Source: Hymenoscyphus infarciens (Eukaryota; Ascomycota; Leotiomycetes; Helotiales; Helotiaceae). Taken from it: a stretch of DNA of 64,000 nt. Within the stretch, counting starts at the first letter, position 1, and the number at the start of each line of letters is the position of its first letter. Of this stretch, positions 1,414 through 64,000 are shown in pieces. Position numbers and translations under genes: made by a program. The DNA is taken from positions 1 to 64,000 of the forward strand of contig LLCB01000226.1 of assembly GCA_001414345.1 (NCBI GenBank), in the 5' to 3' direction. Below the pieces are notes generated by a model. It had not been told where the DNA came from and did not search any database. It worked only from the letters and a program-made list of their open reading frames with translations.

Positions 1414-3949
1414 CTACATACCCGTCCCTCCCAATCCACCAGGGGCTCCCCCACCAACATCGACATTAAACCAATTCAACCAATCAAGTCCCAATCCCGT
1501 CCTATCCATACCCATCCCCAACCCCTCCAGAGACCCATCTTGTAACCCCACCCATTCAAGATCAAACTCCTCGCCCGCGTTATTGATAGCCTCATTAATC
1601 TGATTATCAGACATCGCAGAGAATTGAAGGAGTTCTGGTATCGAGGCTTGTTGTTGTTGTTGTTGAGGTGCATACATCAAAGGTTGAGTAGGTGTATGTG
1701 GAGGATTGTTATGCTGTGGATGGACATGCGGGAATCCAGCCGGCGCTTGCTGAACCTCCGAAGAATGAGAAGGCCGCGGAGCGGGGGTAGAGAGTAAGGA
1801 GCCGACGACTACGCTAAGATGTCTTCCATATAAAGCACTCGTTCCCTTTCGATGCGGAGTAATATTCCCTATCCTCTCCAAAACTCCAGCACTTTCTTCA
1901 ATTAAAACTCTTACACTAGGTGCTAAACTTCCTTTCCCGATGGTACTTAGGTAGACAGCGAAACAAGCGGCGAAGGAAATCATGATACAGGTGTTGTTGG
2001 GCATGGATTGGAGTTTGGATTCTCCTTGTACCGCTGCGCGCATGACGTTTAGGGATGAGGAAAGGCCTGCGGCGCGGAAGAAACGTTTTACGGCGAGAGG
2101 AGCGGTGGGGTGGTTTATTACTGAGCTGTAGATTGAGAGGCGGCCGTGGGTTACTAGGATTTCGACGTAGGGTGGGATAGAGGGGGAGTTTGTTGTGGTT
2201 GTTGGAGTGGTTGTGAAGGCCCATGTTGCGTACCACTGGTTGAAGAACCCGTCTATCATTTGTTGGAGTCTGAGAACATGTGAGGAGGTGTATGGTTACG
2301 ATTTTAGCAGGACCTACGATTGAACTATTATGCTTCCACTGATGTTTTGGGTACGCTCGTTGCCGCAGCTGTCTTTTACAGAGGTAATGAGGTTTACCAG
2401 ATCCCGTCGGAGAACCGTTGATGATATGATAGAGCCATCCCAGACGTCAGCGATGGAACTTCGATGCCAATCATCGCACGTCTCGATGAGAGGCGTGACT
2501 GGTACAATGAAGCTTCGACCTCTGGCTAAGCAGACGCTGTTTGTCGTTAGCTTGGTTTACAAATAAAATTTGAACAACTTACCCTCTATCAAGTACAAAC
2601 AAAGCAAGCCAAATTCTCTCTCTCCTCCTCAATAATCTCCTCCCATACTCCGAAGAAGGATCAACATCCGCAAACCCATCCATATCCAACGCCATCCTCG
2701 CAGTAATACACTCCGATTGAGCTCTTCCTTTTGAAACACCACCTTGGACATCACTTGGCGAAGGAACAATGAGTTTGTCCAATGAGCTGTCTAAAGCAAT
2801 GGTAAGAGCCATCGCCATATAGGAGCATGTCTCATCATCAGACCAATGTTTTCCCGGAGCCATCCAGGGTATGTTGATCATGAATGCCAAGACAATTTCC
2901 GGTGATCGGTTCCCGTTGGCAAAAATGAGACGAGCTAGGGATTTGCTGTGGGCGGAGAGACGTTTTGATAGTGCCCCTGCTGAGGATATGAAGAGAGCCG
3001 ATGCTGCGAGGATCGATGTGAATAAGAATGCCGATTGCTTCTGTACAAAGTGAGGGGTGTGGAGAATTGGATCGAGTCCCCATCGGGTGTGTGAGAGGTG
3101 TTTGTGAAAACTATAGCAAATTAGATCATTCAATAAAAGATTGAGGAAATGTATACTAATTGAAGAGATCCCTCGTCTCTTCTTGTGTGACAAGACCCAT
3201 CTCGATTGGATCTATTTCTTCTCCGTTGTCCAAACTTGGTCGGAAAGGACCAAAGAAATCTCGAAGATCTTTGGCTTCTACAATTCCCGGTCTTGAAATC
3301 ACCGGAAGAGATGATGATATTCTAGGAATATCAATTGAGGTATTTGTAGGTACTGATAAATCTGATGCTCTAGCAAGTAGTTGAAGAGGATTCTCGGCAT
3401 CATGAACAGAAAAGTCATCGGCATTCGAATCAGAAGCACTGGGCCCGGGAATAGACTGCACAATCAAATTAATACGAGGAAGTTGCTGAGATGACGAAGA
3501 GCTTTCTCCTTGGAAGTTATGCTCAATTTCTTGGGGCGATTTCTGAGGCAGGAATTGTTGCGCATCATTTAGAAGCCCCTCTAGTTGATGAAGTTGGCCG
3601 TCATCTGACTGATTCCCGCTTTTTTGCCGCTTGATAGCCTGTTCAATACGATAAACAGCTTTCTCCAATCCATCGCGTTTACTATGCTCATTAGTATTCC
3701 TCCTGTCTCAATTATAGAACCAAAGACTTACTTCTTAATGCCCTTTTTCCGACCAACGCGATACTCCGGGACAATACACTCTGCTTCAGTTTGCGAGCAT
3801 TTTTTGCACCGGGGTTCTCCAGCATCTCGAAGACATCTAGTCTTGCTCTTCCTACAGTTCAAACATGCTGCTTGTTTGCTTGAACTTTGTCCATCTCCCT
3901 TTTCAGCTGTGTTGGAGCTCGATGGGGACCTATATGCCTTGGAATCCAT
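1414..3949 (-). CDS. Zn2Cys6 transcription factor, PrtT-like
   Basis: This is a fungal zinc-cluster regulator. Exons on the minus strand are 3949-3732, 3681-3157, 3110-2583, 2536-2318 and 2269-1414, giving about 781 aa; phases agree at every junction. Exon 1 carries the binuclear cluster C-x2-C-x6-C-x8-C-x2-C-x6-C, starting CLNCRKSKTRC. A basic, probably coiled-coil linker follows (EKAVYRIEQAIKRQK). The middle is a fungal-specific transcription factor domain, with FVLDRGVCLARGRSF built across intron 3 and PPYVEILVTHGRLS further on. The C-terminus is rich in Gln, Asn and Gly. The overall layout resembles PrtT, the activator of secreted protease genes in Aspergillus; that assignment is from family memory and is moderate. 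The ATG at 3949 is chosen because the frame upstream opens only with GTG. The gene is divergent from the amidohydrolase. Confidence 0.85.
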
Positions 3950-4460
3950 GTAGCTAAAAAATCGGGGTATAAGGACAGGGAAGGCGTCCACATTGCCACG
4001 AAAGGAACATTGAGCTCTGGAAGCGATCTCTCTACTCCCAACTAGGCGCGAACATTACTCCAGAGAAAGGAACGATTTTAAATATACACGTCGATGGAGG
4101 TTGTTGCTGCAACATTGATGAAAAAGAGTCGAAGCTCCCGTCCAGTCGGGAACTCTATATCCACGTGACGATTAGCACTCGGGCCGGTTCGCTAGAGTAG
4201 CCAATGGACCTTGTATTTTGGAGTCATTTTATAAGTATTTATTTCAACTTTCAAATTGCTTCCTCACGCATGCACAATTAGAAAACTTTAATTGGGGGAC
4301 TTACAATAGCAATTCTAGCCCGTTATCTGTTCCTTATCTCGCATAACCAAACCCCGAGCCTCGGCTAAAGATAGGGGGACACCGCTGAAAAAAGGTACCC
4401 CCATTCCAGGGAAAATCCTTCATCACCACCTCAGCAATCTAACATTAACTCAACAACAAC
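3950..4460. promoter_or_regulatory. Shared divergent intergenic region
   Basis: These 511 bp separate the starts of the Zn2Cys6 factor (-) and the amidohydrolase (+). Both promoters must lie here, so co-regulation is possible. I see no operator that I can name. Confidence 0.45.
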
Positions 4461-6170
4461 ATGCCTTCCCAACCCCGCCTCATAACACCTTGGCTTCCTG
4501 CCCCTCGGCGAACATATATCTTCCTTAATGCCAACATAATAAGTCCAGTCTCCGGAACCACGATCCCCAACCAAACGGTGAAAATTTCCAAGGGCGTAAT
4601 CGAATCAATTGCGACAACAGAAAATGAATACACACTAGTCTCGCATCCCCACGAAACAACCATCGACCTGAAAGGAAAATTTCTCTGTCCAGGATTAATA
4701 GATAACCACGTCCATATTTCTGCTGTGCCCGGAGAAAAGAATTTAGGGGATTTGTGTCGACTATCTCACGATGTTGGGTTGTTGCGACAGCCATATATGT
4801 GTCGGCAAATGCTTGCGAGGGGATTTACGAGTGTAAGGGATTGCGGTGGTGCTACTTTGGCGTTGAAGCAAGCTATTGCTGATGGTCTGGTGGAGGGTCC
4901 GAGACTTTTTATTGCTGGTAAGGCTTTATCGCAGACGGGGGGTCATGGTGATACGAGAGGATCTTATAGTAATTCGTCTTGCGGGTATGTCTCTATTCCA
5001 TTTCATTTCTCTTTGCCGTTTCTTTTCGTGGGGTTATGAAATTCTCCACTCAATGTCGCATTTTACCCCTCTCAGTCCCATCTCGTATTCAGAGTCAATT
5101 AATTTGACTATTACTATTACTCGTAGCTTTTCTTGGCAGTTAGCGGATACGTTGTACTAAATTATCTTGAAGAATTACTGCTCGTTCTACACTATTTCGT
5201 ACAATATGCTCTAGAATATTCAGTATTTAGACTCTTGTCATTCTCCTCAATAGTTTGTACAAATGAGAAACTAATAATCCCTACGTATTTCTGCACCCCT
5301 TGGTATGATTATGTGGCTCGATTTGAGACACGTTTCCGCTGACTCGTTCTTTTATTTAGTTGTGGCATGATAGAATTATGTCGACTCTGCGATGGTGTTT
5401 CAGATTGCACCAAAACAGCCCGAGAAGAACTCCATGGCGGTGCCGATTTCATCAAGATAATGTCAGGAGGCGGTGTAGCAAGTCCAACAGATAAGTTGGA
5501 CTCGGTTCAATTCCTCTCCTCCGAGATCCAAGCAATATCTGAAGTCGCAAGAAACGCGGGGACGTATGTTACAGCTCACGCCTACACACCACGCTCAATA
5601 ATCCACGCAATTTCAAATGGTGTAACCGGAATCGAACACGGTAATCTCATAGACATTGAAACAGCACGATACATGGCCAAGAACAACATATTCCTCACAC
5701 CAACTCTAGTAACCTACGACGCAATGAAAAATCCCGAATTCAAAGGCTACATTCCCGCCGAATCCATGGACAAAAACCAAGGAGTCCTAGAGTCCGGTCT
5801 CAAAGCTCTACGTATTGCTAGCGATGCAGGTGTAACGATATGTTTTGGCACCGACCTTCTCGGTCCGATGACTATTCTCCAAACCCAGGAGTTTTCAATT
5901 CGTTCAGAAGTCCTCAGTCCGGTGGAAATTTTGAGGAGTGCAACGATAAGCACTGCAAAGAGGCTAGGAATGGAGGATTTCTTGGGTAATATCCAGGAAG
6001 GGTATGCAGCTGATTTGTTGATTTTGAACGAGAATCCTCTTGGTGATATTACGGTTTTAGATATGCCGGAAAAACACCTTTTAGCCGTCATTAAGGATGG
6101 GAGGGTATTTCATAGTCGTTGGAGTAAGTTACCTAAGGATACGGAAAGGGCGACTAGGCTTCTAGAGTAG
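4461..6170 (+). CDS. Metal-dependent amidohydrolase (imidazolonepropionase-like)
   Basis: Two exons, 4461-4984 and 5360-6170, give 444 aa. The junction restores SSCGCGMIELCRLCDGVSDC, which fits the family. Seen in the protein: the metal-binding HxH of strand 1 (DNHVHIS, residues about 81-87), FIKIMSGGGVASPTDK with the likely metal-bridging Lys, VTAHAY and GIEHGN His sites, and FGTDLLGP with the late Asp. These are the TIM-barrel ligands of the amidohydrolase superfamily; the closest known group is the imidazolonepropionase/prolidase-like enzymes that cleave cyclic amides or dipeptides. The exact substrate cannot be read from sequence. There is no signal peptide, so it is probably cytosolic. 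The intron, 375 nt, is several times longer than the others in the window. Confidence 0.88.
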
Positions 6171-30500: not shown

Positions 30501-31794
30501 CCAGTTCACGCCCGGGGATGTTTCGATAAAGGCGAGGAAGGGCACGAATCAAGACAATGTTCCTGTTGATGAAACCATAGTATGGAAGATCCGGAAGATC
30601 ATAAGAAAGGTGGCGAATAGTATACATAGTTTGAAACTGGGCGTTTTCCATGGCGAGTTCTACAGATTTCTGGTCTATCAGGTTATGAATTAATCGGAAT
30701 CTGAATCTGAAATCACCCGGGATGAGGTACAAAATCCAAATGAGGCAGTCTTAAAATGGATTGAATTAAACATTTAACAACTCAATAGAACCGAATCAAT
30801 CTCTTCACATCTTCCAAGTTATATTTCAACTGCTTTATGAGGAAGTGACGAATAGTTCAAGCGAGTGTATTTCACGTGCTCAAGGGGAGATTGGTCACGT
30901 GCAATTGTCAAAGTTTTCCAAGATTCGACCAATCAATTACGCGCATTCCTGTTCGCGATCATCACGAAACATACACCTCAATTTGCACGCAACCCGTTAT
31001 TGATTACTCGGAAACTCGAGTCTATGTTGACCATTCCCAACATTGGCTATTGATCCCAAACACTTCGCTTTCGGCATTCTCATTGCTCTTCACCTGCGTG
31101 TGCCCCTTTGTTTGGGTCGAGCAAGGGACTCGGCGTTTATGGCCCCTCTACATCTCGCCCCCTCTATCTCCACGTACAGTCCAACGTCCAACCATTATCT
31201 AACTTCTCATACTACGTAAAATCCCTCGACCCATCAAATGCAACATTTCACTCTAGCGTAGATCCGAAAAATCAAGGACACGTGGGATCCGAATTTTTTC
31301 AGCACAAGGCAATACGGGGGGTTTGAAGGGGGGGAAGTGTAACCGACTTTGAGAGATAACCAGTTTATGAACACGAGAAACAGAAGATCAACTTGAAACT
31401 TCCGCGTTGGAACTGTCAGATTTCAAACTACTTGTTCCGGGTGGTCATCAAGCTCGCTTTTCGCCTACTTGTGTGGCAAAAACCACACACACGCTGGATG
31501 ATCCTACGTATGACTGGTTGGCTCGCCATTCCTTCGCCGACTTCTAGAAGCAGAAACCCCGAAAAGGGACATTCGATTCGAGATCTCCTTCTTACCGGTA
31601 TATTGATTGTTACGGTCTCACTAAGCCGAATTATTCTTCGCTACTCGCAACAATCTTATTGTATGATCAGCCATCAGTAACTGGGTGAATGACAATTTAA
31701 CTTCATGCTAAGGTTACATTGAGTTTGGGTACAAAAGTTGCGGTTTCAGACAACGGGAACAATTAGATAATTGAGTGTGTGTCGTTGAGACAAG
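27563..31794. other. Gene-poor region between the C2H2 gene and TERT
   Basis: No recognisable gene. A minus-strand frame at about 30732-30450 (LPDLPYYGFINRNIVLIRAL) and another at about 29914-29591 look mildly coding, but no domain, start or intron pattern supports a model. The segment also has AGGTAC-type short repeats near 29480. The last few hundred bases are the TERT 5' flank. Confidence 0.4.
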
Positions 31795-34700
31795 ATGACC
31801 GGCAAAAGAAAGAGAAAGCGTCCTGGTAATGCAACCGAAAGCCATGAGAAACGGCAAAAAACAATTTCAAATACAAGTTTGGCGATCCCAAAGGATTCTG
31901 TTATCAAGCAAGCTTTGCTTACTCAGTTTTACTCCGAAGTGTTTACTCTTCGAGGGTACTTGCTTTCAAAGTTACCAAGCTCTTCCAAAATCAGAAGAAA
32001 GAAGATTTTGCATGTTGGTAATAGTAGAAATCCAGATGAAGATGGTAATCAAGATTTATCTTCATTTCTTGACCAAACTTTGGTTGGTGTCTTGCCTCAG
32101 AGTGATGGCTTGAAAGAAGATAGACGGCAGCAATGGGCAAGTTTGTCCCAGAAAGCTGATGACTCCACGTCAACTTTTATAGACTTAAATGCCGTGGGAA
32201 GATTTTCACAATCAGAGGTGAGTTTGATCTAGTGCAATGGAATTGGCATTTTATGGACACATCCTTCTTTGCTGTTTTGTGATCGCATCTAACTTATGGC
32301 CATTAGATTGTCAACAAATCAATTTGGATGCTTATCTTCTCAAAAAGTTCACCTTCGTACGGACGCGTTCAACATTTACTTTGCCAAGGATTCCAAAGAG
32401 AAATAAATTCAAGAATGATCAATCAAGGTCAAGGACATACTTCGGCGATTCCTGGTGTAGTCTCAACTTATCCAAATAGTCATGTCACAGCAATGAGATC
32501 AAGACCATGGCCCCAAGTTCTACTTCTTCTGGGAAAAGAAGGGGAGAATGTCATGGCTGATTTAATAATGGATTGTGGTATATTCATTGAGACTGAGGCA
32601 GGTCATGGTGTTTATCATCAACTAAGTGGTTAGTCTCAGAACTTGAACTGCGTACTGAATGTGAACTAACATTGGCAAGGTATACCTTTGGGTGAGCTTC
32701 GTACCTTGCCGAAGACTTGCGAGAGCGACCCCAAGACCCATTTACCTGTGTCGGAAAAGACCGGCGGCAGTGCTGTCAAGCCTTCGATCCACAATCCTTC
32801 GAGCATTGTGTTTGTCCGAAGTCGGATGCTCTACTCTCGTGCAGAATTGAATGCACAAGGAGGAGTTAGGTTTGGATTTAGGCATATTCGTATGTTTTCT
32901 ATCACCTCTTCTGTTCCACTGGCTAATAATACAGATGTTCTAAACCGTTATGCACTTGAACCAAACAAACCACATCGCAAAGAGGATTCTTCAGAGTCAT
33001 GGGGAGAACTACCCCTCGACCCCAGCACAATTCATATCATGATGTACCTATTCCCTCGCCAATTTGGACTTCACAATGTTTTTACTAGTGAAGTTGATCA
33101 TCGGCAAACTGTTCAACCATATAAGGATTATACTCTTCGGGAAGACGAGATTTATGACATATACTCCGGTCCAACAACACCCAAATTACCAAAGAGGTTG
33201 AGGGGAAAAATTGCCGAGCTGGTGAGGAACTTGCAAGTTCAACATAAGCGATGTGCTTACAAAAAGTTACTCGAACATTATTGTCCTGTAAGTATCGCAC
33301 AAACCATGCTATAAGTATACGCTAATCTTACAGGTTAACGCTGCCGCTTCGGTTTTCCAATTGCCCTTAACGCAATCACAGAAAAGCAAAGAATCGTCTG
33401 CCATTTTCAAGACCCAGAACACTATCAGTACAGCTACTATCGGTACAGCTACTGAAATTGCAAGCACTACGGGGACCAAAGATGTATCTCCACCGAAACC
33501 GTCTTCTATGATGGACTATGCAACACCTATCCCAATGGTGTCTGCTTTTTGCCGCTCTGTCTTATCAAATATCATCCCAAGGGAATTCTGGGGAACAGGC
33601 GAGACTCAGGCTAACAACAAGAAGAGATTTCTTTTGAATGTGGATCGCTTTATCGAGCTGCGTAGATTCGAGAGCTTCTCTCTTCATGAAGCTACACAAG
33701 GTTTGCAGGTGAGTCAGTTTACGAGTTCTTGAATTTGCATCACGATAAACTCTCAACAGACAACTTTCCTAACCCGCAACCAGATCTCACAAATTGAATG
33801 GCTCCAACCCCTCAATTGTGCCAACAACAAAGCCTCCCAATCAGACACAAAAAAGCGCCTAGAAATATTCCAAGAATTCCTCTACTACACCATAGACTCC
33901 CTCCTAATCCCCCTAATCCGCGCAAACTTCTACGTAACAGAATCCAACATCCATCGCTACCGCCTTTTTTACTTCCGTCATGACGTCTGGAAATCTCTCG
34001 CCGACCCAGCAATGACTTCCTTGAAACTCAACATGTTTGAAGAAGTAAAATTGGAACAAGCACAACAGCTGTTACAGCGTAGGACATTGGGATTCAGTCA
34101 AGTGAGGTTACTTCCCAAAGAAAGTGGGATAAGACCGATTATGAATTTGAAGAGGAGGGTGGTGAAGAAGGGGACGAAGAGTTTGGGGGCTAGTATTAAT
34201 AGTCTTCTTACACCGGTTTATAATGCGCTTTGCTATGAAAAGGTATTCCCCCCTCTCTACAATTTCTCTCCACAAACCCCGAATGATGAATACTAACAGA
34301 ACTCAAGCAAACGAACCCCGACCGTCTCGGCTCAGCAATGTTCTCAGTAGGCGACCTCTACACCCGCATGAAAACCTTTAAATCCCATCTCCTCACCCTC
34401 GACCTACTTAACAAACCCCTCTACTTTGTCAAAGTCGACGTCCAATCAGCATTCGACACCATCCCGCAATCCGCAATCCTAGATCTCATGGCCACCATCC
34501 CAACTGAAGAAGAATACCGTCTCACCAAACATGTAGAGATTAAACCCGGAGCAGGCTACCGCGATTCCCTTTCTCATTCAAAACACGAGCAATCAAAACC
34601 CATCCGTGCATGGAAAGCAACCGCCAAAGCTTCGGATGATTATACGACTTTCTCGGAGAATTTGAATGGGAGTTTGGGGAAGGAGAGAAGGAATACTGTT

Positions 34701-36467
34701 TTTGTGGAGAATGTGGTTGTGCAGACTAGGGGGACGAAGGGGCTTCTGGGGTTATTGGGGGAACATGTTCAGAGGAATATGGTAAAGATTGGGAAAAGGT
34801 ATTATCGCCAAAAAGAGGGGATACCACAAGGTTCCATCCTGTCCTCCCTTCTCTGCAATTACTTCTACGCTGATCTTGAAGCTAAACACTTGGGTTTCTT
34901 GAAGCAAGGGGAGGGAAAAAGTCTGCTGTTGAGGCTTATTGATGATTTTTTGCTGGTTACTACGGATAAAGAGCATGCGAAGAGGTTCCTGGAGAGGATG
35001 CATGAGGGTGTTGGGGAGTATGGGGTCAAATGTCATCCTGGGAAGAGTCTGGTTAATTTCGAGGTTTGGAGTCAGGGACAGAAGGTTAAGAGGGTTGTTG
35101 GGAAGAGGGACTTTCCATTTGTTGGGTGTATCGTTGACATGAAGGATTTGGGGATTTCTAGAGATAGAACACGGAGAAGGGAGTTGGGTGAGCTTTTTCT
35201 TATTTTCTCTGCTTTTCTGGATTTGATTTATTTGGGTTGTTTTATCCATGGGTGTATGAACAAGTCCTCGTTGAAGGCAGTAGGATTTTTCGGGTTTTCA
35301 TTTTCATTTTCATTTGGGTGGAGATGGTAGGATTCTGGATGGATCGTGGCTAACATCTAAAGTAGCAATTGTCGACTCGCTCACAGTCGAATTCTCGAAA
35401 ATGCCGGGAAGATCATTTCATCGGAAAGTCCTCAGTAAGCTCACCCCTCCTTATTTCCCCCTCTATTTGATTTTCGTTGTGGCGCGTCAAAAAAAATCCC
35501 GTTGCTCGTCATCCATCGCATCATCTCTGGTGGTGAAATCTGCAATGCACAGACCTGTTCATGGTGTCAATTACGTGAAAGACTGCCACATACGACCATA
35601 GACTGAGGAGAATTGGGCATCCCGTCCGCTCTGCCATACACAAGCCTCAGATCGGCAGATTAGTAGTTGGGTGGGTGACCACCAGCGAATACCTGCTGTT
35701 GTATGTTTTTGTCCTTTTTTTGCTCGATATTCCTAGACCCTCTCTTTCTCTCTACTTCTTATTCTCATGGTTCTATTCCCGGACCTTTGTTGTTCCTCTT
35801 TTTTTGTTTTTTGGCGAGGTTTGGTGTTTTGATGAGGGCAATACTAATTGTCACAGATGCATTCAAAATCCAATCCCACGCCATGTTCCTAGACACAGCA
35901 TTCAACTCCCTCCCAACCGTTCTCTCAAATGTGCATGCAGCGTTTATCGAAACAGCTACGAAAATGTGGACTTATGCCAAATGTTTACCTGTTGGGAAAC
36001 AACCTGGGATGAAGTTATTAATTAGTGAGTTTTCTCCCTCGTGAGGTGTGCGGGAAGAGTGGGGTAAGAGGGGAACGCACCGGGAGTTGAGATGCTGACG
36101 GGAATTAAAATAGAAACTATCTCTGATGTCATCGAACTCGCGTTCATCCTCATGAAAAGCAAGGAGAGGAATAAGAGGAATGCGGGGTTTAGATGTGTGG
36201 TTCGGAAGGTGTGGGTTGAGTGGTGAGTTTATTTTTCCTTTATCCTTTCCTGTTATTGTCCATCCATCTCTCACTCGGAGATGCAGAAGCGGAAACAAAT
36301 ACTGATGATAGCATAGGCTTGCGATGAATGCCTTCCGAGAGGTATTAAGTAAAAGACAAAGTCGGTACGGAAAGATAATTGAGTGGTTGGATGGAAAGAC
36401 TGAGGAACTAGAGAAGAAGGAAAAGAAGAGTTGTGAGTTTTTGAAGGGAGCTGTTGGGAGATTTTGA
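31795..36467 (+). CDS. TERT: Telomerase reverse transcriptase
   Basis: TERT copies the telomerase RNA template onto chromosome ends. Eleven exons give 1173 aa: 31795-32217, 32307-32628, 32680-32889, 32935-33287, 33334-33708, 33784-34242, 34308-35187, 35363-35434, 35857-36024, 36114-36222 and 36317-36467; all phases agree. The TEN region has VQHLLCQGFQR and RPWPQVLLLLGKEGENVM. The RNA-binding domain includes RHIHVLNRYALEP, QFGLHNVF and NIIPREFWG. RT motifs 1 and 2 are RYRLFYFRHDVWK and RLLPKESGIRPIMNL. Motif A is FVKVDVQSAFDTIPQ, motif B' is EGIPQGSILSSLLCN and motif C is LLRLIDDFLLVTT, so all three catalytic Asp are present. The C-terminal extension has SHAMFLDTAFNSLPTVLSN. Most introns are 45-90 nt; the intron at 35188-35362 is 175 nt, and that at 35435-35856 is 422 nt and contains a 5S rRNA gene. 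Confidence 0.95.
35588..35706 (+). rRNA. 5S ribosomal RNA gene within a TERT intron
   Basis: The 119-nt segment begins ACATACGACCATAG and ends CTGTTGTATGT; the two ends pair as the 5S helix I. The internal control region is intact (TAGTAGTTGGGTGGGTGACC, then ACCAGCGAAT). A T-run at 35706-35710 follows, as expected of a Pol III terminator. Helix II differs from the usual ascomycete sequence on both arms (CTGAGG with CCTCAG) but still pairs, which argues for a functional variant rather than a decayed copy. It lies on the same strand as TERT, wholly inside intron 35435-35856. Dispersed 5S genes are known in filamentous ascomycetes. Confidence 0.92.
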
Positions 36468-55079: not shown

Positions 55080-57860
55080 GTTGGAGCCGGAGAAGAATAG
55101 TACAAATGGCGTTAAAATTGGACAAAACAGATGGATATTACCATGGAGAGGGTTTTGTATTAGTATATGTGTAATCTGTGGGTGTAAACCTCTTTTTGCT
55201 TGGGAATCACTAGGTATACTATAATAAATATTTCAAATTTTGAGATTTCAGATTTCAAATTTTAAATTTATCTCGGCGATAGAATAGATTTTGTTATTTG
55301 AAGCTGAAGCACTCTGAATCTACTACTAGGCGGGTTTAATCTTAAAACAGCTTTGATCTCTAGCCAGAAAAGTGCATATTGATTCTATCAATTCAACAAG
55401 TTTTGGGATTCAAAATTCGTAATCTTTAGGTATTTGCCATCCTGTTATAGCAGAAGAACTGCCAGGAGAATGAAGAGCTGTAATACAATGTCCTTAACTA
55501 CGTTTTGTTTAGTTTGTATAGTCTCTTACGAGCATTCTAAAATTTCCAACTACAGAAGAAGGGGGGTTTTTCCGCACAGTATCTAGAAAATGCAATATGT
55601 TCAAGTTCACTGAAACTAGGCAGAATCGGGCTAGTCTAACTCGTAATAATGGGATCGCATAAGCCAAAAGTCACATATCTATTAGTAGGTAGGTAAAGTT
55701 CAGTCCAAATCTTCGGAATAATTTGTTTCTACGATCAGTGGAATCTAGAATCAAGCTTTTTTTGGAATGTTTGAAACACCTACATGTACAATTTGTGAAT
55801 CTGCTTCTAAAAATGCACAAGAGCTATTCAATCTACCAAGAATAGAGTGTTTATAATAAGAAAAGTCATAGACACGAGGGGAAAGCATCTATAAGTTAAG
55901 CGAGAATAAGGGCTCTAAACTATATCCTCTACATTTATACAACTCTGGAATCCAAAACCACAATCTAGGCATGTAAAGTACAATCAAACTGCAGGGGTTA
56001 ATTGTTAGGGCTCTCTTGAGGAAACAATCGCAAAAAGCTAAATGGTCTCCCAGATCCTCTATCTTATAATTCACTAGGTCACAATTAACTTGATACTCGA
56101 TCAGGTGTAAACTTGTTCAAGATATCCAATGCCTAGAACCATGTATTCTCGCTATGCTGGTTCAAGAATGGGACAAATTGACAGCTTCGCATTAACTCAA
56201 ACCTCATTCATCCCTTCAGATAAAATCAGAATGCCACTTTCAGACAGGAATGATGGATTCTTATCTTCAATCCAGCCACATAAACAATATAAAAGCAATA
56301 GCCTTTAGTAATTCTGTTATCTTGGCTGTAATTCAATACCCCAGTTCTACTTTAGGCGAGTTTTCCAGGTCTCCGCACCTCCACTTAGACATCCTCTCTG
56401 TACCTGTTGTATAGCTCTTTTACCACTCCAAGCCTCCCATCCAGTTTCCAGGCTCCTTTACTTATTTTCACCCCTAGAGTCCTCACTCTCGCTCTTACGT
56501 TGCTGGAAAGTGATCGCGATCGCGAAAGTGAGAGATTACGTAGGGCGTTTACATCTTATGTAGGGGTTTTTCCTAGAAGAGGATAGACAGGCGATATACA
56601 ACGTCTAAAGAGGCTTGGTAACTACGAGGACCTAATACATTAGCTCCATTTTTCCCTTTTTACTTTTTATACTCTCCTCTGATGTTCTTCTTGTCTATTT
56701 CCCTATTCTATATTATTGAAATAGTAGAAGAGATTTAAGTAACGAGGAAGACGTACACTAGTAAGTAAGAAAGACTAGGTAGCTAACTAAAAAGGAGAGA
56801 AAGAAGAGGCGAAAGCAGAGAGTATAGCTAGAAACTAACTATTATCTGATTTGTATTCAAAAACTTGTGAAGCATAGCTCAATTCCCTGTTCTTATGTTC
56901 TGCGTTCCGTACAGGTCGAATTTACAACTAGACATAAAGCTGACTTGGTCATACTTGGGTTTCAAGTCGACATGGCCTCTTGTGTCGAGAACTGTTAGGG
57001 CAATGGTATGGGCGAAAGGGAAGTTTCAAGACTGATCTGATTGCATGGTCAGCGGGCTGAGCCATCAAATGAGTAGCGAGTGATATTTCGTGAATTGACA
57101 TATCAGCTACAAAGGTGATGACCCAGAAATTGGCTTGGCTTTTGAATATGAGTAAGAATACATAACTGATAGCAAAGTTGAACTTAAGAATTGTAGGGCG
57201 TGGGGAAACTTCCCTCATTTCGGGACGGCCTCCGAACCAACCCATGGCTGCCGCATCACTTCACTACCACACCACAACGCTTATACTTACTCAAATGATT
57301 CCTGATACAAGGGATCAAATAGGTAATGGAGCTTATATTTATGCACGGAAAAGTTGTTTGGTCTTATTTTACGGATTCCCGACCGGAGGAGTAATTGCGG
57401 TCTTGAATTTGCCAGCGCGCCCATAGTTATGCCCACAGCCACCACCAAGCCGGCATTACTCAACATATACTGGCTCCCACTAGATAGCAAACAGGAGATG
57501 TGTTTTTAGTCTTGGTGGTCGACTTTCTTATGTGGCGGCGTCCTGCCCGACCTGCAAGGCATTGGGGAATGCACGCCGAACCCCTGAGCTGCTTATCAAC
57601 CATTAGTTGGAATCTTGAAAGGGACAAAGAAAAAGTAGAGAGTAGGTTGGTAATAAATCAAGGATCATATCTCGTAGGAGGATGAATGGTTACGAGTCTA
57701 TGGAGGGGCGGGCTTACGTGTGTGTCGCAACCTTTGGTCCTCGGGCCTTCTACTACTTCCTTTCGCAACCCTCGTAACGTGCAAGTGTTAAATTTTTGAA
57801 ATATACAAATCTCCACGACACCAGGGGTATGCTTACCTACATGTCCACCAGGTCGGTTCG
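55080..57860. other. Repeat-derived DNA without recognisable genes
   Basis: AT-rich, with scattered short frames. Minus-strand frames at about 57490-56950 contain hydrophobic pieces (SQYMLSNAGLVVAVGITMGA) that could be transporter debris, but no family motif is clear. Confidence 0.45.
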
Positions 57861-57867
57861 GCTAAGG

Positions 57868-58840
57868 GTCTAGGTGGTGATGCACGCAAAATAACCCCCC
57901 CTCTCTTACTTTGAATTACACAACAACCGCTTTCTAGGATGGTTAGATAATTTATTCTATGGCTCTTTATATACTTAGGATTATGAATTTTAAATTATAT
58001 ACTTTATGGGGTAGACCTAAAAGTTGTAGATTCTTTTAGGCATATACGTAAAACCCCGTTTTCGCTAGTCGCTACGCTTACAAAACCCACCCTCTCTCTC
58101 AACCACAATTACTTAACAACAGCTTTTCAGAATCGTTAGGTAATTTATTCTGTGGCTCTTTCTATACTTCAGATCATAAGTTCTAAGTGCTATAGTTTTA
58201 AGAGCAGACTTAAAAGTTGTAGAGTGTTTTAGGGAGCTGTTCTTTCGCGATATATATTAGTGGTGCACGCAAAACCTCTCTCTTATACTCTCTCAACAAC
58301 CACTTTTCAAAATAGCTAGATAATTTATTCTAAGGTTCTTTATATACTTAGGATTATAAATTGTAAATTATACACTTTAAGGGGTGGACCCAAAAGCTGT
58401 AAAGCGTTGTGGGATGCCCTCTTTTCGTGAAAATTTATAGCGGTGGTGCACGCAAAACCCTCTCTCATACCCTCCCTCTCAACCACAATTACCCAACAAC
58501 GGCTTTTCAGAATCATTAGATAATTTATTCTATTGCTCTTTATATACTCAGGATTACAAATTTTAGATATTATACTTTAAGGGCTAGGCCCAAAAGTTGG
58601 AGTACGTTTTGAGGTACCCTCTTTTCGTATGGCGGTGGTGTACGCAAAACCCTCTCTTTTACTCTCTATCTTAAATTGAATTACTTAACAACCACACTTA
58701 AGAATGGTTAGATAATTAAGTATAAGCTTTTTTTATATACCTAAATCTATATTAAAGCACTTTTTATAAAAATGGGGCTATACTCAAAAGTCGTAGTATG
58801 TTTTGAGATGCTCCCTTTTCGCGAAGCTTCTTAGTAGTGC
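57868..58840. repeat. Tandem array of about five ~190-bp units
   Basis: Each unit contains GTGCACGCAAAACC, CTCTCAACCACAATTA, TTAGATAATTTATTCT, TCTTTATATACTTAGGATTA and AAAAGTTGTAG in the same order. Unit starts lie near 57870, 58070, 58260, 58443 and 58633, and a partial start word lies near 58833. Units differ by many C/T and G/A changes. No coding frame. The array ends about 150 bp from the stop of the first DUF3328 gene. Confidence 0.85.
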
Positions 58841-58993
58841 ATGTCCACCGTAGAACTCACTCACCTGCTTATTGTTGCTATTAGTGTCTGGGAGATTCTA
58901 CCACTACGATATATCGTTGAAAATATATCATACAACGTATAATTTTCAACCATAAACTATGTCTTCAAAGAAAGTAAAATGAAGCACATAAAA

Positions 58994-59972
58994 CTACTCT
59001 GGCCCGACGATGCTCTGAATATCATCCACTCTTCGGTCCTCAATCCATTTAACGGCCTCTGAACGATCACGACACATGTGAGCCTGGCCTTCACCCATAG
59101 CACCCAACCCACTCTGGCTCCCCTCCAATGTCATATCGCTCATACAGAGGAGCTGGTTTCTCAAATACTCAAAGCAATGCGCAGCGTGGTAATCATTTCG
59201 TTCCCCGTCAAATCCAAATTTAGTTCCGTTGGAAACGGTGAGTTGGTGATAAGAGTCCACGGTGTAGTAGAGACAGTGCAGTGCGTGCGTCCACGAAGCT
59301 TCGAAAATGGTACCGTTACGGGTAGGGTCGTCATCGACGGGCATTCCAAGTTTGGGATAGTTTGCGTAATCGGGGATATTAACAGTTCCGCTTCCGACTA
59401 CGTGAGATGTCAGTTGAGGGTTTATCTGTACACTCAGAAAGAGGGGGACAAACGTGGCATTAACATGTCCCAGTTCTTTCGGACTTCCATTCGATTGGCG
59501 TCAGTGGTCATATTTGGTACGAATTTTTCCTCCTGTGGTGTAAGGGTCATGTATGTATGCTTAGCTAAGTTGAGGTTAGAATGAGTGTGGGTCAAATTGA
59601 GGAGAAACCCATACTTGGAATGTATAAACCATTAACATCACCACCGGTTTCTGTCATCCACTCGTCCCACTTTGTACCACCCATCAAACCACTTCTAGGA
59701 ATCAACAAGACTATGATGACACATTGGAAGAAAAGAACCACACCCCATCTCAACCAGACGAACAGATTTTCTTTCCGACTGTTGAACTCCTCTCGCTGTT
59801 GAAGTCTCGATTTCGGCGAGAGTGACCGGGAAGGACGAGATTTGAGGAACGATGAAGACGCGAGAGTGGTATCGGAGTCATTTCCTTGGTCTTCGAGGTC
59901 CGTATCAAGGGATAAGTTGGGAACTCCGGAGAGTGTGCTATATTTCGATGCCTGGGGATTTGAGGGAGCCAT
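58994..59972 (-). CDS. UstYa-family (DUF3328) oxidase-like protein 1
   Basis: Exons on the minus strand are 59972-59615, 59564-59454 and 59397-58994, giving 290 aa in consistent phase. An N-terminal acidic/Ser-rich cytosolic part is followed by one membrane segment (WLRWGVVLFFQCVIIVLLIP, about 73-92). The luminal part carries both HxxHC motifs of the family: HALHC at 194-198 and HAAHC at 227-231, the latter in HAAHCFEYLRNQLLCMSD. UstYa-type proteins are proposed metal-dependent oxidases that cyclise the precursor in fungal dikaritin RiPP pathways (ustiloxin, asperipin, phomopsin). The pairing with a second DUF3328 gene and a repeat precursor within 4 kb supports such a role here; the product is unknown. 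Confidence 0.88.
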
Positions 59973-60734
59973 GACTGAGGAAATTGGATTTGAAAGTGTT
60001 CTGGGAAATCAACGAAAGTAAAGAGACTAGCAAATCAATTGCTCAAGAAAAGAATGGCAAGTCTATTGCAGAGGATGAAAGTAGCAAAAATTAGGTTACA
60101 GAAGCACGAAATGTAAAGGAGGGAGACTGCGACCCCAAGTTTTAACAAAGATCAGACCAAACTTCTCCTTGAAAATAATGAATCAGACGCCTGATCCTAT
60201 CCAAAGCAGACCTGGTTGCCCGTGTTAGCCTCATTTGGTTACAGATCGTTTCATCTTATTTACTGCAGGGTGGAAACGTCAGAGCAAAGATAGAGGGAAG
60301 GTGAAGGCGAGGTGGAGGATTGGCATCAAGTTGAGATCGGATTGTGCATCTGGGTAAGGGGCGGCTTGGCTACAGCGCTAACTTGAGACAAGGTTTGCTG
60401 CAGACATGCTTACGTGCATCAGGGGTTGATTCGCTTGGGGGTTGTTTTTCGGAGAGGGGTGTGGAGCCGATGTTTGAGGCTCGAGTAACGGTTGCAGGGG
60501 TGAAGATTCGATGGAAGGGAGATGGAGGCTGAATTGGTGATATCATTGTTATCAGATTAAAAGGGGCGTGTTGCTCTCATTGTTCAGTGTCGGTAATATT
60601 GTTACACGGAGGGCAATTTACGGTTATGTATTGACGAAAATATCGAAATGCATATAATTATCATAAAATTGATGTGCGAATCGCAACTTGATTTTCGCTC
60701 ACATAAATCTAAAAACTACCATGGGAAGAAAAAA
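59973..60734. other. Intergenic region within the RiPP-like cluster
   Basis: Lies between the promoter of DUF3328 gene 1 and the 3' end of gene 2, both on the minus strand. No gene seen. Confidence 0.5.
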
Positions 60735-61783
60735 TTAACGTCTTTGAGGATGGCTCATATCGGGTCTCTCCATATTTCCTACAGAATGCTCCGTCGCCCA
60801 ATCAACCACTCTGTCAAAGTTACGGCACTGGTGAAAACTGTTGAGTTCAGGCCAAGGCAATGGGTCACCTTCTTCCATGTAGAATGTGAAAAGGCCAATA
60901 TCGGCATTGCACTCAATATTCTTTCTCAAAATCTCAAGACAGTGATCTATTTCAGTTAGTTTGTGTAAAATGATCAAGGAAATGAAAACGTACCGGTGTG
61001 CATTTGAAGCTTTTCTGGTTCAGTGGCTATGTCTCCGTATCCCATTTCGGTGTAGTAATCTTTGTAAGTGACTTGTCGGAGAAGGTTGACACAGTGAAGT
61101 TGGTGGAATCTGGATGATGGGGGGGTTAGTATTTGCCTATCAAGAAATGTCTGGGGATATGGCACAGGAGAAATGCTCGCGTTCAGGAATGATTCAAGAG
61201 AAAGAAAGCTGGGGAACGGTGTCCCCATTACCTACACTTCTAGACCAACACGATATCCTTCCACGCCCGTTATCGGGTGCTTGACTTTCAGTGAGGATTC
61301 CGGCATCCCGATAACTTTGAGTTCCTCCGGAGTGATCATTTGGTCGCCCATGTCGTACGAAATCTTGTCCCACGCCTCGTCGACCGAAGGTCCTTTGCCA
61401 ACAAACGGTGATCCTTCCCCCATCGTCGCATTGAATTTTACTCTCTGATACTCAATTGCACTTGCTGCTGGGGCTGGTAAAAGTGTCAGTTGTTGTCTTG
61501 AATTTGTCGGAACATACTCACAGTATGCTGAAAACTTTCGGACATGCTCCAAGGTTGAAACTCTAGCAAACCACGAAGAAATGAACATTGTCAAAGACAG
61601 ACTCAGTAATGCTGCGTGTAACACCCAGATCCATCGTGAACCTCCCCTCCTCTCTGGTTGCATTCCCCTCTGTTCCTCTTCATCGAGTAAAGTTGAGTCC
61701 GAAAGCGAACTAGAGGCTCTCCTTGGTGGAAAAACGTCTTGGAACTTCTCATCGGCATCGTGCACTGGCTGATATTTGGACAT
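60735..61783 (-). CDS. UstYa-family (DUF3328) oxidase-like protein 2
   Basis: Exons on the minus strand are 61783-61522, 61473-61236, 61109-60994 and 60946-60735, giving 275 aa in consistent phase. A short N-terminal region is followed by one membrane segment (WIWVLHAALLSLSLTMFISS, about 51-70). The luminal part has EVFHQLHCVNLLRQ, with HQLHC at 169-173, and HTDHC at 204-208, followed by LEILRKNIECNADIG: the two HxxHC motifs of the family in a more canonical form than in gene 1. The 126-nt third-exon intron uses GTAGGT; splicing there is required to build EVFHQLHC. It lies 1.3 kb from, and divergent to, the repeat precursor. Expected location is the ER/Golgi membrane with the active part in the lumen, where a secreted precursor would pass. 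Confidence 0.92.
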
Positions 61784-63079
61784 TTTTGCTAAAAGAATGA
61801 AATAATTACACCTGGTAAGTCAAGAATTGAATAATTTGAAAGTGAACGAATTTGCTTGACCAGAAGCAGTTGGGGAGAACAGAAGCAGAATGGGGAGAAG
61901 ACCAAGTTGTGGAGGATATGATTGGCAGAAAGGGGCAACGACAAACGATTATCGCCTCCTCCCCGGTTCTGTCTGATCATCAAAATCCCTCGTGCCAAGT
62001 CTTAGATATCGGATGTCCTGAAACTAAGTGCTCGAACCCAGCGAGTTTGAGGTCACCGTAGCCGCAAACAATGGCGGTAAAGCTTCAATGCGGCTGGAAA
62101 TCCTTCTGTGTGGAAGAAATGGGGGGAAAGTGGACCCTTTCAATCACTGGCTAAACGTCAAAATGTCGTAAAATCCCGAGAAATTCAGTAATGGTAACTA
62201 GAAACATGCTGGTTTCAACAGCGATAAACATCACAATTTGATACATGCTTTTGGCTCATGACTCGGTGGAGAGGCCTATTTGTTGGAAACGGCCTCGTAA
62301 GTAAAGTGAAAATGTTCCCAGAGAAGAATTTTCACAAGGGCAGAATTAGAACAATGCTCACGAGTAAGAGCACAAAGCAGCTGCGGGATATCCGAAATTT
62401 CGGGTTCTCGAAACAAGGGGAAAAGAGGCACGTCCCGGGGGCTGTCGTCTGAAGTCTTAGAACAAGCTTCCCCGGCCACCCCCTACCTTGTAGTGTCAGC
62501 ATGTCAGCACCACGGGCATTCCCTATCGTGGCGTAGCGCCACCTTAACGAGGTAATGTTGGTAAGTGGAGCCGATTTCGATATGTTCTCGTCTCTTCCCC
62601 CCTTTTGGATCTTTAGCGTTTCCCCTCACTCACTCCTTCCCCAGAATGAGGAGGACCCGTTTAATCTAACCTTATTTGCTTGCATATCAAACACCTCCTC
62701 ATGTGCCAGAAAGTGTTCACGGCTGGTCTCTTCCTATGTCTATCGCCTGGGATATGTGAGACGACGATTGGTTTGCCAATTGTGCGGTTCGTCAATCAGG
62801 ATTTGTCGAGGATGTGCATGGTTACTCCCCATGGCCAATGATTTCCAACGGAGGTGTCCAGCAGCCCTGTGTACCTAGTCAGTACCTGTGCTGAGTCGAA
62901 AAAAGGGGAGGAATATTTCTGTTAGGGCGGGATTTTGATATAAAGTAACGGAATTCTCCCAAAATAATCAGCTCATTCCTTCTCATCTTCTCCATTTTAT
63001 TCCATTCTTTGATCTTCGGTATTCAACTTTATTCATTCTTTTTAACTGCCGGCCAGTCTTTATACTTTATATATTCATC
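61784..63079. promoter_or_regulatory. Divergent region between DUF3328 gene 2 and the precursor
   Basis: 1.3 kb without a convincing gene. A TATAAA word at about 62939 lies about 140 bp before the precursor ATG and is followed by a pyrimidine-rich leader, so it is a plausible promoter. No shared regulator site could be identified. Confidence 0.45.
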
Positions 63080-64000
63080 ATGCACTCCGTCTCCGTTTCT
63101 AAGGTTCTTGCCTTTGGCTTGTTGGTCGCAGCACCACTTGCATCCGCCCAACCTATCGACACTTCCTCCGACTTGAGCAAGAAGTGGGTTGGCGGACCAG
63201 CTGCTTGGATTAGATCCATTCTTCCAGTTGAAGCTAGACATCATACAAAAGCTCAGATAGCGGCCAAAACCAAGGGAGCTCGTGATATCGAAGTTGTCCA
63301 GTCCCGTGACCTCCAAGATAGACAGCCACATCATACCAAAGCGTAAGTTCTTCTCTTCCTGACAACCATGGGGCGCTTAGTCAATTGTATGATCTTCCCT
63401 GAACTTTAACTGACAATCCGTAGGCAGATAGCAGCCAAAGCTGGTGGCAAGGCCGCTCGTGATGTGGAGGAACGCCAGCCACATCATACTAAAGCGTTAG
63501 TCTTCCCTTAACCATTTGGATATCTAACTCCGTCCACTGACAAGTTCCACAGTCAAATTGCAGCCAAGGCCGGTGGCAAGGCTGCTCGTGATCTCACTGT
63601 TGAAGAACAAGAGGATCTTGAGGACGCCGAGGATGCTGAAGACGAACTTGAGACCCGTTCCCCTCATCGTTAGTATAAAGGACTTTCTATTTTTACGAAT
63701 CATCCAGCTGACTCCAAATATACACTAAAGCACAGATAGCTCAGAAGGCAGCTGGCAAATCTGCTCGTGATCTTACAATCGAAGAACAAGAGGATCTCGA
63801 GGATGCCGAAGATGCTGAAGACGAGCTCGAGACTCGTTCCCCTCATCGTTAGTATAAAGGACTTTCCAGTTTTACGAATCATCCAGCTGACTCCAAATAT
63901 ACACCAAAGCACAGATAGCGGCCAAATCTAGCGGGAAGGCTGCTCGTGATCTTACTATTGAAGAGCAAGAGGATCTTGAAGACGCTGAGGATGCTGAAGA
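63080..64000 (+). CDS. Secreted tandem-repeat precursor, RiPP-like (partial at window end)
   Basis: The start is ATG 63080. Exons are 63080-63342, 63424-63495, 63553-63668, 63731-63847 and 63910 to beyond 64000. A clear signal peptide ends at ...APLASA (residue 23). The repeats follow, each with R before (Q/S)PH, then QIAAKAGGKAARD, then an acidic spacer such as EEQEDLEDAEDAEDELETR. The first three repeats carry HHTKAQIAAK; later ones read SPH then QIAQK or QIAAK. At least five repeats are seen; the protein continues off the window. The layout (signal peptide, short basic segment, acidic spacer, repeated) is that of Kex2-processed repeat proteins, which include dikaritin precursors and alpha-type pheromone precursors. 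Classical KR sites are absent; single Arg sites bound the units. With two DUF3328 genes beside it, a RiPP precursor is the best inference. Confidence 0.78.

Follow-up and report, generated by a model that had tools for sequence, protein, structure and literature searches.

The DUF3328 (UstYa) enzymes of fungi are described as dicopper oxidases that form ether cross-links (PMC12186524), and those UstYa-family ribosomal peptides that are treated in PMC7329392, PMC12186524 and PMC9233826 are cross-linked through Tyr or Phe. In the ustiloxins and phomopsins, the DUF3328 enzymes link the N-terminal Tyr to an internal Ile (PMC9233826). Asperipin-2a, made from a repeat precursor with one DUF3328 gene (PMC7329392), has a core cross-linked through Tyr (PMC7329392, PMC9233826). 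In this report we describe a locus in the first 64,000 bases (the window) of contig LLCB01000226.1 (C142; 98,947 bases) in the 65.6-Mb genome of Hymenoscyphus infarciens, where two UstYa-family genes, UstYa-1 and UstYa-2, lie beside a gene for a repeat protein with a His-His-Thr core. With moderate confidence, we regard the three genes as the pathway of a His-core peptide that is made ribosomally and then modified by oxidation. This reading draws on the motifs, the conservation, the processing signature in the sequence, the predicted gene structures and the locus tags that place the two UstYa genes next to each other.

The repeat proteins catalogued by Umemura in 2020 (PMC7329392) include type G-3 (#6), with 64 members in 20 genera and a di-histidine (HH) motif. 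DUF3328 genes lie within 15 genes of 57 of the 64 members. The text goes on with 'accompanied by P'; this could concern the three types listed at that point together or only a type other than G-3. According to the same text, pheromone precursors are not accompanied by DUF3328 genes, with three exceptions.

The locus shares several features with these systems. As in the ustiloxin and phomopsin systems, a multi-core precursor (six repeats here) lies beside DUF3328 genes, and the core has an internal Ile; the proposed N-terminal residue is His or Tyr here against Tyr there. The differences are that His replaces Tyr in the core, that the introns lie inside the cores, and that no tyrosinase, methyltransferase or peptidase was recognized nearby. 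Asperipin-2a likewise combines a repeat precursor with a DUF3328 enzyme, but the present locus has two such genes and its precursor has no Tyr. The kind of system is known and its type probably catalogued.

The UstYa pair and the repeat precursor

Both UstYa proteins belong to the PF11807 (UstYa/DUF3328) family, scoring 47.9 and 186.7 bits for the two proteins against the Pfam cut-off of 25. Each contains two HxxHC motifs, and the aligned positions are kept in most relatives. Both motifs were found in 61 of the 65 UstYa-1 relatives and one motif in 2, and among the UstYa-2 relatives (best 120 of 200 matches) both were found in 84 and one in 35. One hydrophobic segment is visible by eye in each protein; the terms membrane segment for the UstYa proteins and secreted for the precursor are based on such stretches. 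Thus, the two DUF3328 proteins with a membrane segment and both motifs, as described in the original prediction, were confirmed.

All splice models are predictions from the sequence. On the minus strand, UstYa-1 consists of exon 1 (59615-59972; start codon and hydrophobic segment; six-frame match 1.0e-75), exon 2 (59454-59564; genome re-search match 59446-59565, 93% identity) and exon 3 (58994-59397; both motifs, HALHC and HAAHC, the PF11807 match and the stop). The three-exon model was preferred, as the stretch that it reads over both junctions is also present in homologues. The Pfam scan, the relative search and the motif count of UstYa-1 were performed with a two-exon query having an incorrect middle stretch, and the genome re-search was performed with the three-exon model. 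UstYa-2, on the same strand, consists of exon 1 (61522-61783; start codon and hydrophobic segment), exon 2 (61236-61473), exon 3 (60994-61109; first motif FHQLHC, supported by homology searches) and exon 4 (60735-60946; completing the HTDHC motif, with a PF11807 match of 5.7e-17 and the stop). The intron 61474-61521 was chosen because homologues read FSAYSPAA over it.

Among the matches listed, the named species with the best relative is Hymenoscyphus fraxineus for UstYa-1 (66% identity) as well as for UstYa-2 (75%). A genome-wide search with PF11807 at E <= 0.001 gave 41 exon matches. Of these, 39 exceed the cut-off, and joining at a spacing of <1.2 kb gave 30 groups on 19 contigs. The next genome matches by E-value are only 39% (UstYa-1) and 33% (UstYa-2) identical, so each of the two genes appears to be single-copy. 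No sequence relative of UstYa-2 was found in the PDB at E <= 1. AlphaFold2 models for both UstYa families, built from the orthologues P0075 and P0010, had a mean predicted local distance difference test score of 67.2 and 63.5, the best E-value of P0075 against the PDB was 0.39, and no conclusion was drawn from them.

The precursor gene lies on the plus strand, divergent from UstYa-2, with its ATG at 63080, 1.3 kb from the UstYa-2 start; by direct reading the intergenic region is 61784-63079. The gene ends at C142:64119, 119 bp past the window; its six exons, separated by five introns, together encode a protein of 243 residues. Exon 1 (63080-63342) encodes a hydrophobic leader, repeat 1 (HHTKAQIAAK) and the first half of repeat 2. 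Exon 2 (63424-63495) encodes the remainder of repeat 2 and the first half of repeat 3, and exon 3 (63553-63668) the remainder of repeat 3, an acidic spacer and the beginning of repeat 4. Exon 4 (63731-63847) encodes the shortened repeat 4 (SPHPQIAQK), an acidic spacer and the beginning of repeat 5. Exon 5 (63910-64000 in the window) runs on to C142:64036, and exon 6 (C142:64083-64119) completes the gene. Tandem Repeats Finder detected a 179-bp period at 63566-64000 with a score of 667. The protein consists of a hydrophobic start and six repeats with Arg-flanked, partly acidic spacers between them: HHTKAQIAAK three times, HHTKSQIAAK as the last repeat and a shortened form (SPHPQIA) twice. The tandem-repeat protein with acidic spacers predicted within 4 kb of the pair is thus a real gene, secreted as far as its visible hydrophobic start indicates. 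A Pepsin-I3 Pfam match on the precursor (21.4 bits, cut-off 21) covers residues 118-136 at the junction of a core tail and an acidic spacer; no stretch passed alone, and the match was rejected as spurious.

A second precursor gene with the same core is located at C337:78245-79379, and only these two were found in the genome. The nine intact cores of both genes differ at 162 synonymous and 34 non-synonymous codon pairs in 360 comparisons; since synonymous differences exceed non-synonymous ones, the core is under purifying selection and is not a product of chance. The 13-mer CTGCCGGCCAGTC at 63046-63058 (plus strand) has exactly two copies in the genome according to an exact-copy search, the other at C337:78208-78220. 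They lie 21 bases (window gene) and 24 bases (paralogue) upstream of the respective ATG, and the leaders themselves have largely diverged.

The cores of the two paralogues are split by introns at differing points (window 63343-64000; L022 4547-5445). All five introns of the window gene lie inside cores, three in full-length and two in shortened ones. The former three split the codon directly before the Gln, and the latter two lie in the Pro codon. In the C337 paralogue, introns 1-4 split the second His codon, intron 5 interrupts a shortened core at its Pro codon, and intron 6 splits the codon before the Gln. It is as though the intron boundaries slid during the duplication of exon-intron units. 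The shortened PHPQIA repeats of both paralogues contain a near-alike intron (L022 5196-5257; window 63669-63730 and 63848-63909): both the sequence and the boundaries of intron 5 of the paralogue align with those of the shortened-core introns of the window gene, two in number, and the splice boundaries of exon 4 match those of this intron in the paralogue. This close similarity suggests an exchange of repeat units between the paralogues or an inherited unit type.

On the minus strand of contig C214 (L024 1741-2599) there is a gene for another secreted-looking repeat protein, very rich in Lys-Ala, with acidic Arg-flanked spacers. It matched the precursor weakly (E 0.0018), lacks the HHT core and was not counted as a family member.

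Core conservation and predicted processing

Relatives of the precursor were searched among 5.8 billion proteins, with scoring limited to the 7,994 candidates that had the most words in common with it. Nine relatives were obtained at E <= 0.01, including P0001 of Lachnellula hyalina, P0002 of Botryotinia calthae and metagenome proteins. The best relatives of all come from the two named species, with E-values of 4.1e-31 and 2.7e-26. Together with the two proteins of the genome, these eleven proteins contain 45 cores, with three shortened cores lacking HHT left out. The core and its flanking cut sites are conserved across the relatives, and the leader and spacers vary. The His at position 2, the Thr at position 3 and the Gln at position 6 are invariant in all 45 cores, partly by construction because the search pattern included all three. 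Position 1, where the pattern permitted only His or Tyr, has His in 42 cores and Tyr in three. The latter are three of the five cores of P0008, which start with Tyr-His and are the only ones to carry a Tyr where the reactive residue is predicted. Position 7, free in the pattern, has Ile in 40 cores and Val in five; the Val residues are all in last repeats of P0003-P0007 that look like read-through into an intron. Among prokaryote genome contigs, a UstYa relative was found in none of 55 pattern stretches.

The residues preceding the cores show a common form. In 20 of the 45 cases the core directly follows the preceding Arg. In the others the two are separated by one X-Ala or X-Pro pair (23 cases), two pairs of this kind (1) or Glu-Leu (1). 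As 44 of the 45 cores are preceded by Arg and either nothing or such pairs, a kexin cut followed by dipeptidyl-peptidase trimming is implied, and His-His-Thr is thus predicted as the N-terminus of the mature peptide. The precursors of the yeast alpha-factor type show the same signature, an Arg cut site and X-Ala dipeptides ahead of each core. They differ from the present case in that no pheromone core was recognized here by eye and in that UstYa genes adjoin the window precursor.

The His-His start brings in another explanation, in which the peptides are secreted copper-binding ligands and the UstYa enzymes are copper-dependent modifiers or unrelated. HH stands at the predicted N-terminus of 42 of the 45 cores, the DUF3328 enzymes are described as dicopper (PMC12186524), and a ribosomal peptide with His-to-butyrine links is called copper-binding in the title of its report (PMC10206099). 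On the other hand, the first His is replaced by Tyr in the remaining 3 cores, and no metal-specific transporter or regulator was recognized among 48 open reading frames (ORFs) of the neighbourhood scanned by Pfam. We regard it as quite improbable. The peptide with His-to-butyrine links is, we presume, bacterial.

Linkage of the precursor to the UstYa pair

Locus tags of the UstYa-1 matches (65) and the UstYa-2 matches (best 120 of 200) were compared by eye. The two are consecutive in at least six species, which we take to fall in four classes: Hymenoscyphus fraxineus (HYFRA_00010573/4), Venustampulla echinocandica (BP5553_00090/91), Chlorociboria aeruginascens (B7494_g276/277), Fonsecaea monophora (AYO21_11106/7), Verruconis gallopava (PV09_09513/4) and Varicellaria rhodocarpa (MMC14_001555/6). 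The distance is two tags in Trichoderma sp. CBMAI-0711, six in Venturia effusa and four in Trichoderma gracile, where tags need not be sequential. In Hyaloscypha variabilis, Microthyrium microscopicum, Bisporella, Talaromyces stipitatus, Xylogone and Trichoderma virens, the matches are on equally long contigs. According to these sequence comparisons, the UstYa pair is conserved across fungal classes. Four adjacent DUF3328 pairs are reported in Sclerotinia sclerotiorum (PMC6941272), one of which may correspond to UstYa-1 and UstYa-2.

The genus range connects the pair with type G-3. The UstYa-1 relatives come from 24 named genera, and these include 11 of the 20 G-3 genera. The overlap is 7 of 35 for G-2 (pheromone), 2 of 19 for G-5, 3 of 19 for G-6, 2 of 17 for G-7, 0 of 18 for G-8, 2 of 14 for G-9 and 0 of 11 for G-10; the comparison left out G-1, G-4 and one non-genus G-7 entry. 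From this overlap of genera, and not from the repeat sequence, the precursor family is probably type G-3. The HH motif, the nearby DUF3328 genes and the genera are shared; the window precursor differs in having one dibasic site. As the genus range matches, the pathway was probably already catalogued in 2020. Calling it a new cluster, as in the original prediction, was thus too strong, given also the conservation of the UstYa pair across classes. The assignment to a dikaritin-type trio held in part: the UstYa pair and the repeat precursor are present with the genus range of G-3, but by its Tyr-free core the system is not of the ustiloxin, phomopsin or asperipin type.

The core letters were not found in a literature text search, and neither was a characterized product that could be linked to the core. 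A Trichoderma cluster for a ribosomally synthesized and post-translationally modified peptide, whose core is given (PMC7099791), has a different core; a second conserved Trichoderma clade in that report may be identical with the HHT-core family. SPPHKT, among the conserved motifs in PMC6339444, is not the HHT core.

Several observations weigh against the three-gene pathway. No UstYa match was found on the 272-kb contig of the C337 precursor even at E <= 10 (queries were the window proteins, and only the best candidates were scored). The contigs of the L. hyalina precursor (LHYA1_G007466) and of UstYa-1 (LHYA1_G004311) in that species are not the same, and the two tags are far apart. These two precursors in part realize what the original prediction had said would count against it, namely precursors away from DUF3328 genes. 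The UstYa-1 and UstYa-2 matches of Lachnellula cervina sit on separate short contigs, and Xylogone has an additional UstYa-2 type match on a different contig. The 243 residues of the precursor include no Tyr. In 39 of the 45 cores the cleavage site is a single Arg, which is unusual, and not dibasic (KR in 6). Umemura's rule asks for at least three repeats of at least eight residues between KR, KK, RK or RR (PMC7329392); the window precursor, with one dibasic site after residue 20, falls outside it, and P0001 falls within it. A second di-histidine type, G-8, has DUF3328 genes near 45 of its 49 members (PMC7329392). The 45 cores are not independent because several of the eleven proteins are near-identical. 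A distance of at most 4 kb from one of the 30 UstYa groups applies to about 0.32% of the genome, which speaks for the pathway; the figure is post hoc, however, and worth little alone because the finding was picked for nearness. The 9- to 12-mers common to the region upstream of UstYa-1 and the divergent region are within the range of 100 shuffles; no promoter motif beyond chance was found there.

The separated precursors, the alpha-factor-like signature of Arg and X-Ala or X-Pro, and the lack of Tyr would all fit a secreted peptide that stays linear and unmodified (a signal, an effector or a pheromone-like peptide), with the nearness of the UstYa genes incidental or only historical. We consider this unlikely, though deserving some weight, on three grounds. 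The genus range matches G-3, in which DUF3328 genes are near 57 of the 64 members (PMC7329392). Two apparently single-copy UstYa genes adjoin one of only two precursors found in 65.6 Mb. Further, the L. hyalina copy may belong to an unlinked lineage, because its leader is closer to the C337 paralogue (score 114) than to the window precursor (74). The leader of P0009 is also nearer the unlinked paralogue (78 vs 29), and those of P0003-P0005 slightly so. The leader of Botryotinia calthae is nearer the linked window precursor (66 vs 38), as are those of P0006 and P0007, and that of P0008 favours neither. Two precursor lineages, one UstYa-linked and one unlinked, are plausible from these leader comparisons.

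The neighbourhood was scanned by Pfam up to the contig end using the 48 ORFs mentioned above, which are 28 of 49 to the right (at least 100 residues) and 20 of 67 in the window (at least 120 residues); small or split genes could be missed because only this subset was scanned. No tyrosinase, P450, methyltransferase or peptidase was recognized among them, and none of the 31 tyrosinase matches in the genome is on C142. The tailoring genes expected to the right of the window, if any, were therefore not recovered. No polyketide or peptide synthetase was recognized among the 48 ORFs either, and the sole KR-domain match is a short-chain dehydrogenase.

This result bears on the idea that the UstYa pair serves some other pathway (polyketide, non-ribosomal peptide or housekeeping) and that the repeat protein is an unprocessed cell-wall or surface protein. 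DUF3328 enzymes occur also in polyketide and non-ribosomal peptide clusters (PMC12048977), and among the matches listed the UstYa pair is in more genera than the precursor. Several UstYa-2 relatives, again among those listed, carry in databases the name of CctO of cyclochlorotine. CctO serves a non-ribosomal peptide pathway, but no non-ribosomal peptide synthetase was recognized here. The conservation of core and cut sites, while leader and spacers vary, also argues against an unprocessed protein, and we give this idea the least credence of all those considered.

Between the precursor and the end of C142 (98,947) there are an AT-rich repeat region, an unassigned ORF with weak coiled-coil-type matches only, and the short-chain dehydrogenase about 12 kb away; a RecQ helicase and an MFS transporter were also placed there by inspection. 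The AT-rich stretch just right of the precursor (L009 ~1440-5100) has repeated segments and, judged by eye, resembles a repeat element that has mutated. In the window, tandem units of ~190-300 bp that are AT-rich and degenerate were seen by eye at ~57860-58850; they contain TTAGATAATTTATTCTA, with one pair at a spacing of 192. A telomerase reverse transcriptase gene with Telomerase_RBD and RVT_1 matches was placed by inspection at ~31789-35330.

Proposed pathway and its significance

In the three-gene pathway that we favour, the genes would be expressed together, and the precursor would be cleaved and modified to give the product. The precursor would enter the secretory pathway, where a kexin-type protease may cut after the Arg ahead of each core. 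A Ste13-like dipeptidyl peptidase would then strip the X-Ala and X-Pro pairs, leaving peptides that start with HHT(K/E/A)AQIAAK. UstYa-1 and UstYa-2, putative membrane-anchored copper oxidases by homology, would act on the core. By analogy with ustiloxin, the most likely step would be an oxidative link (or dehydrogenation) of the N-terminal His (Tyr in 3 of the 45 cores) with the conserved Ile. The C337 precursor, having the same core, could be processed in trans by the same UstYa pair, which needs only co-expression.

More tentatively, we suggest that the UstYa pair may perform His-centred chemistry on HHT(K/E/A)AQI, either a His-Ile link or a dehydrogenation. The result would be an ancient, conserved, Tyr-free peptide, hormone-like or metal-binding, in several classes of the Pezizomycotina. 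The presence of a UstYa pair beside a conserved His-His-Thr core without Tyr raises a direct and testable question, namely what the UstYa enzymes do to His. If the trio is as widespread as the genus match suggests, the product may serve the biology of the fungus itself rather than attack.

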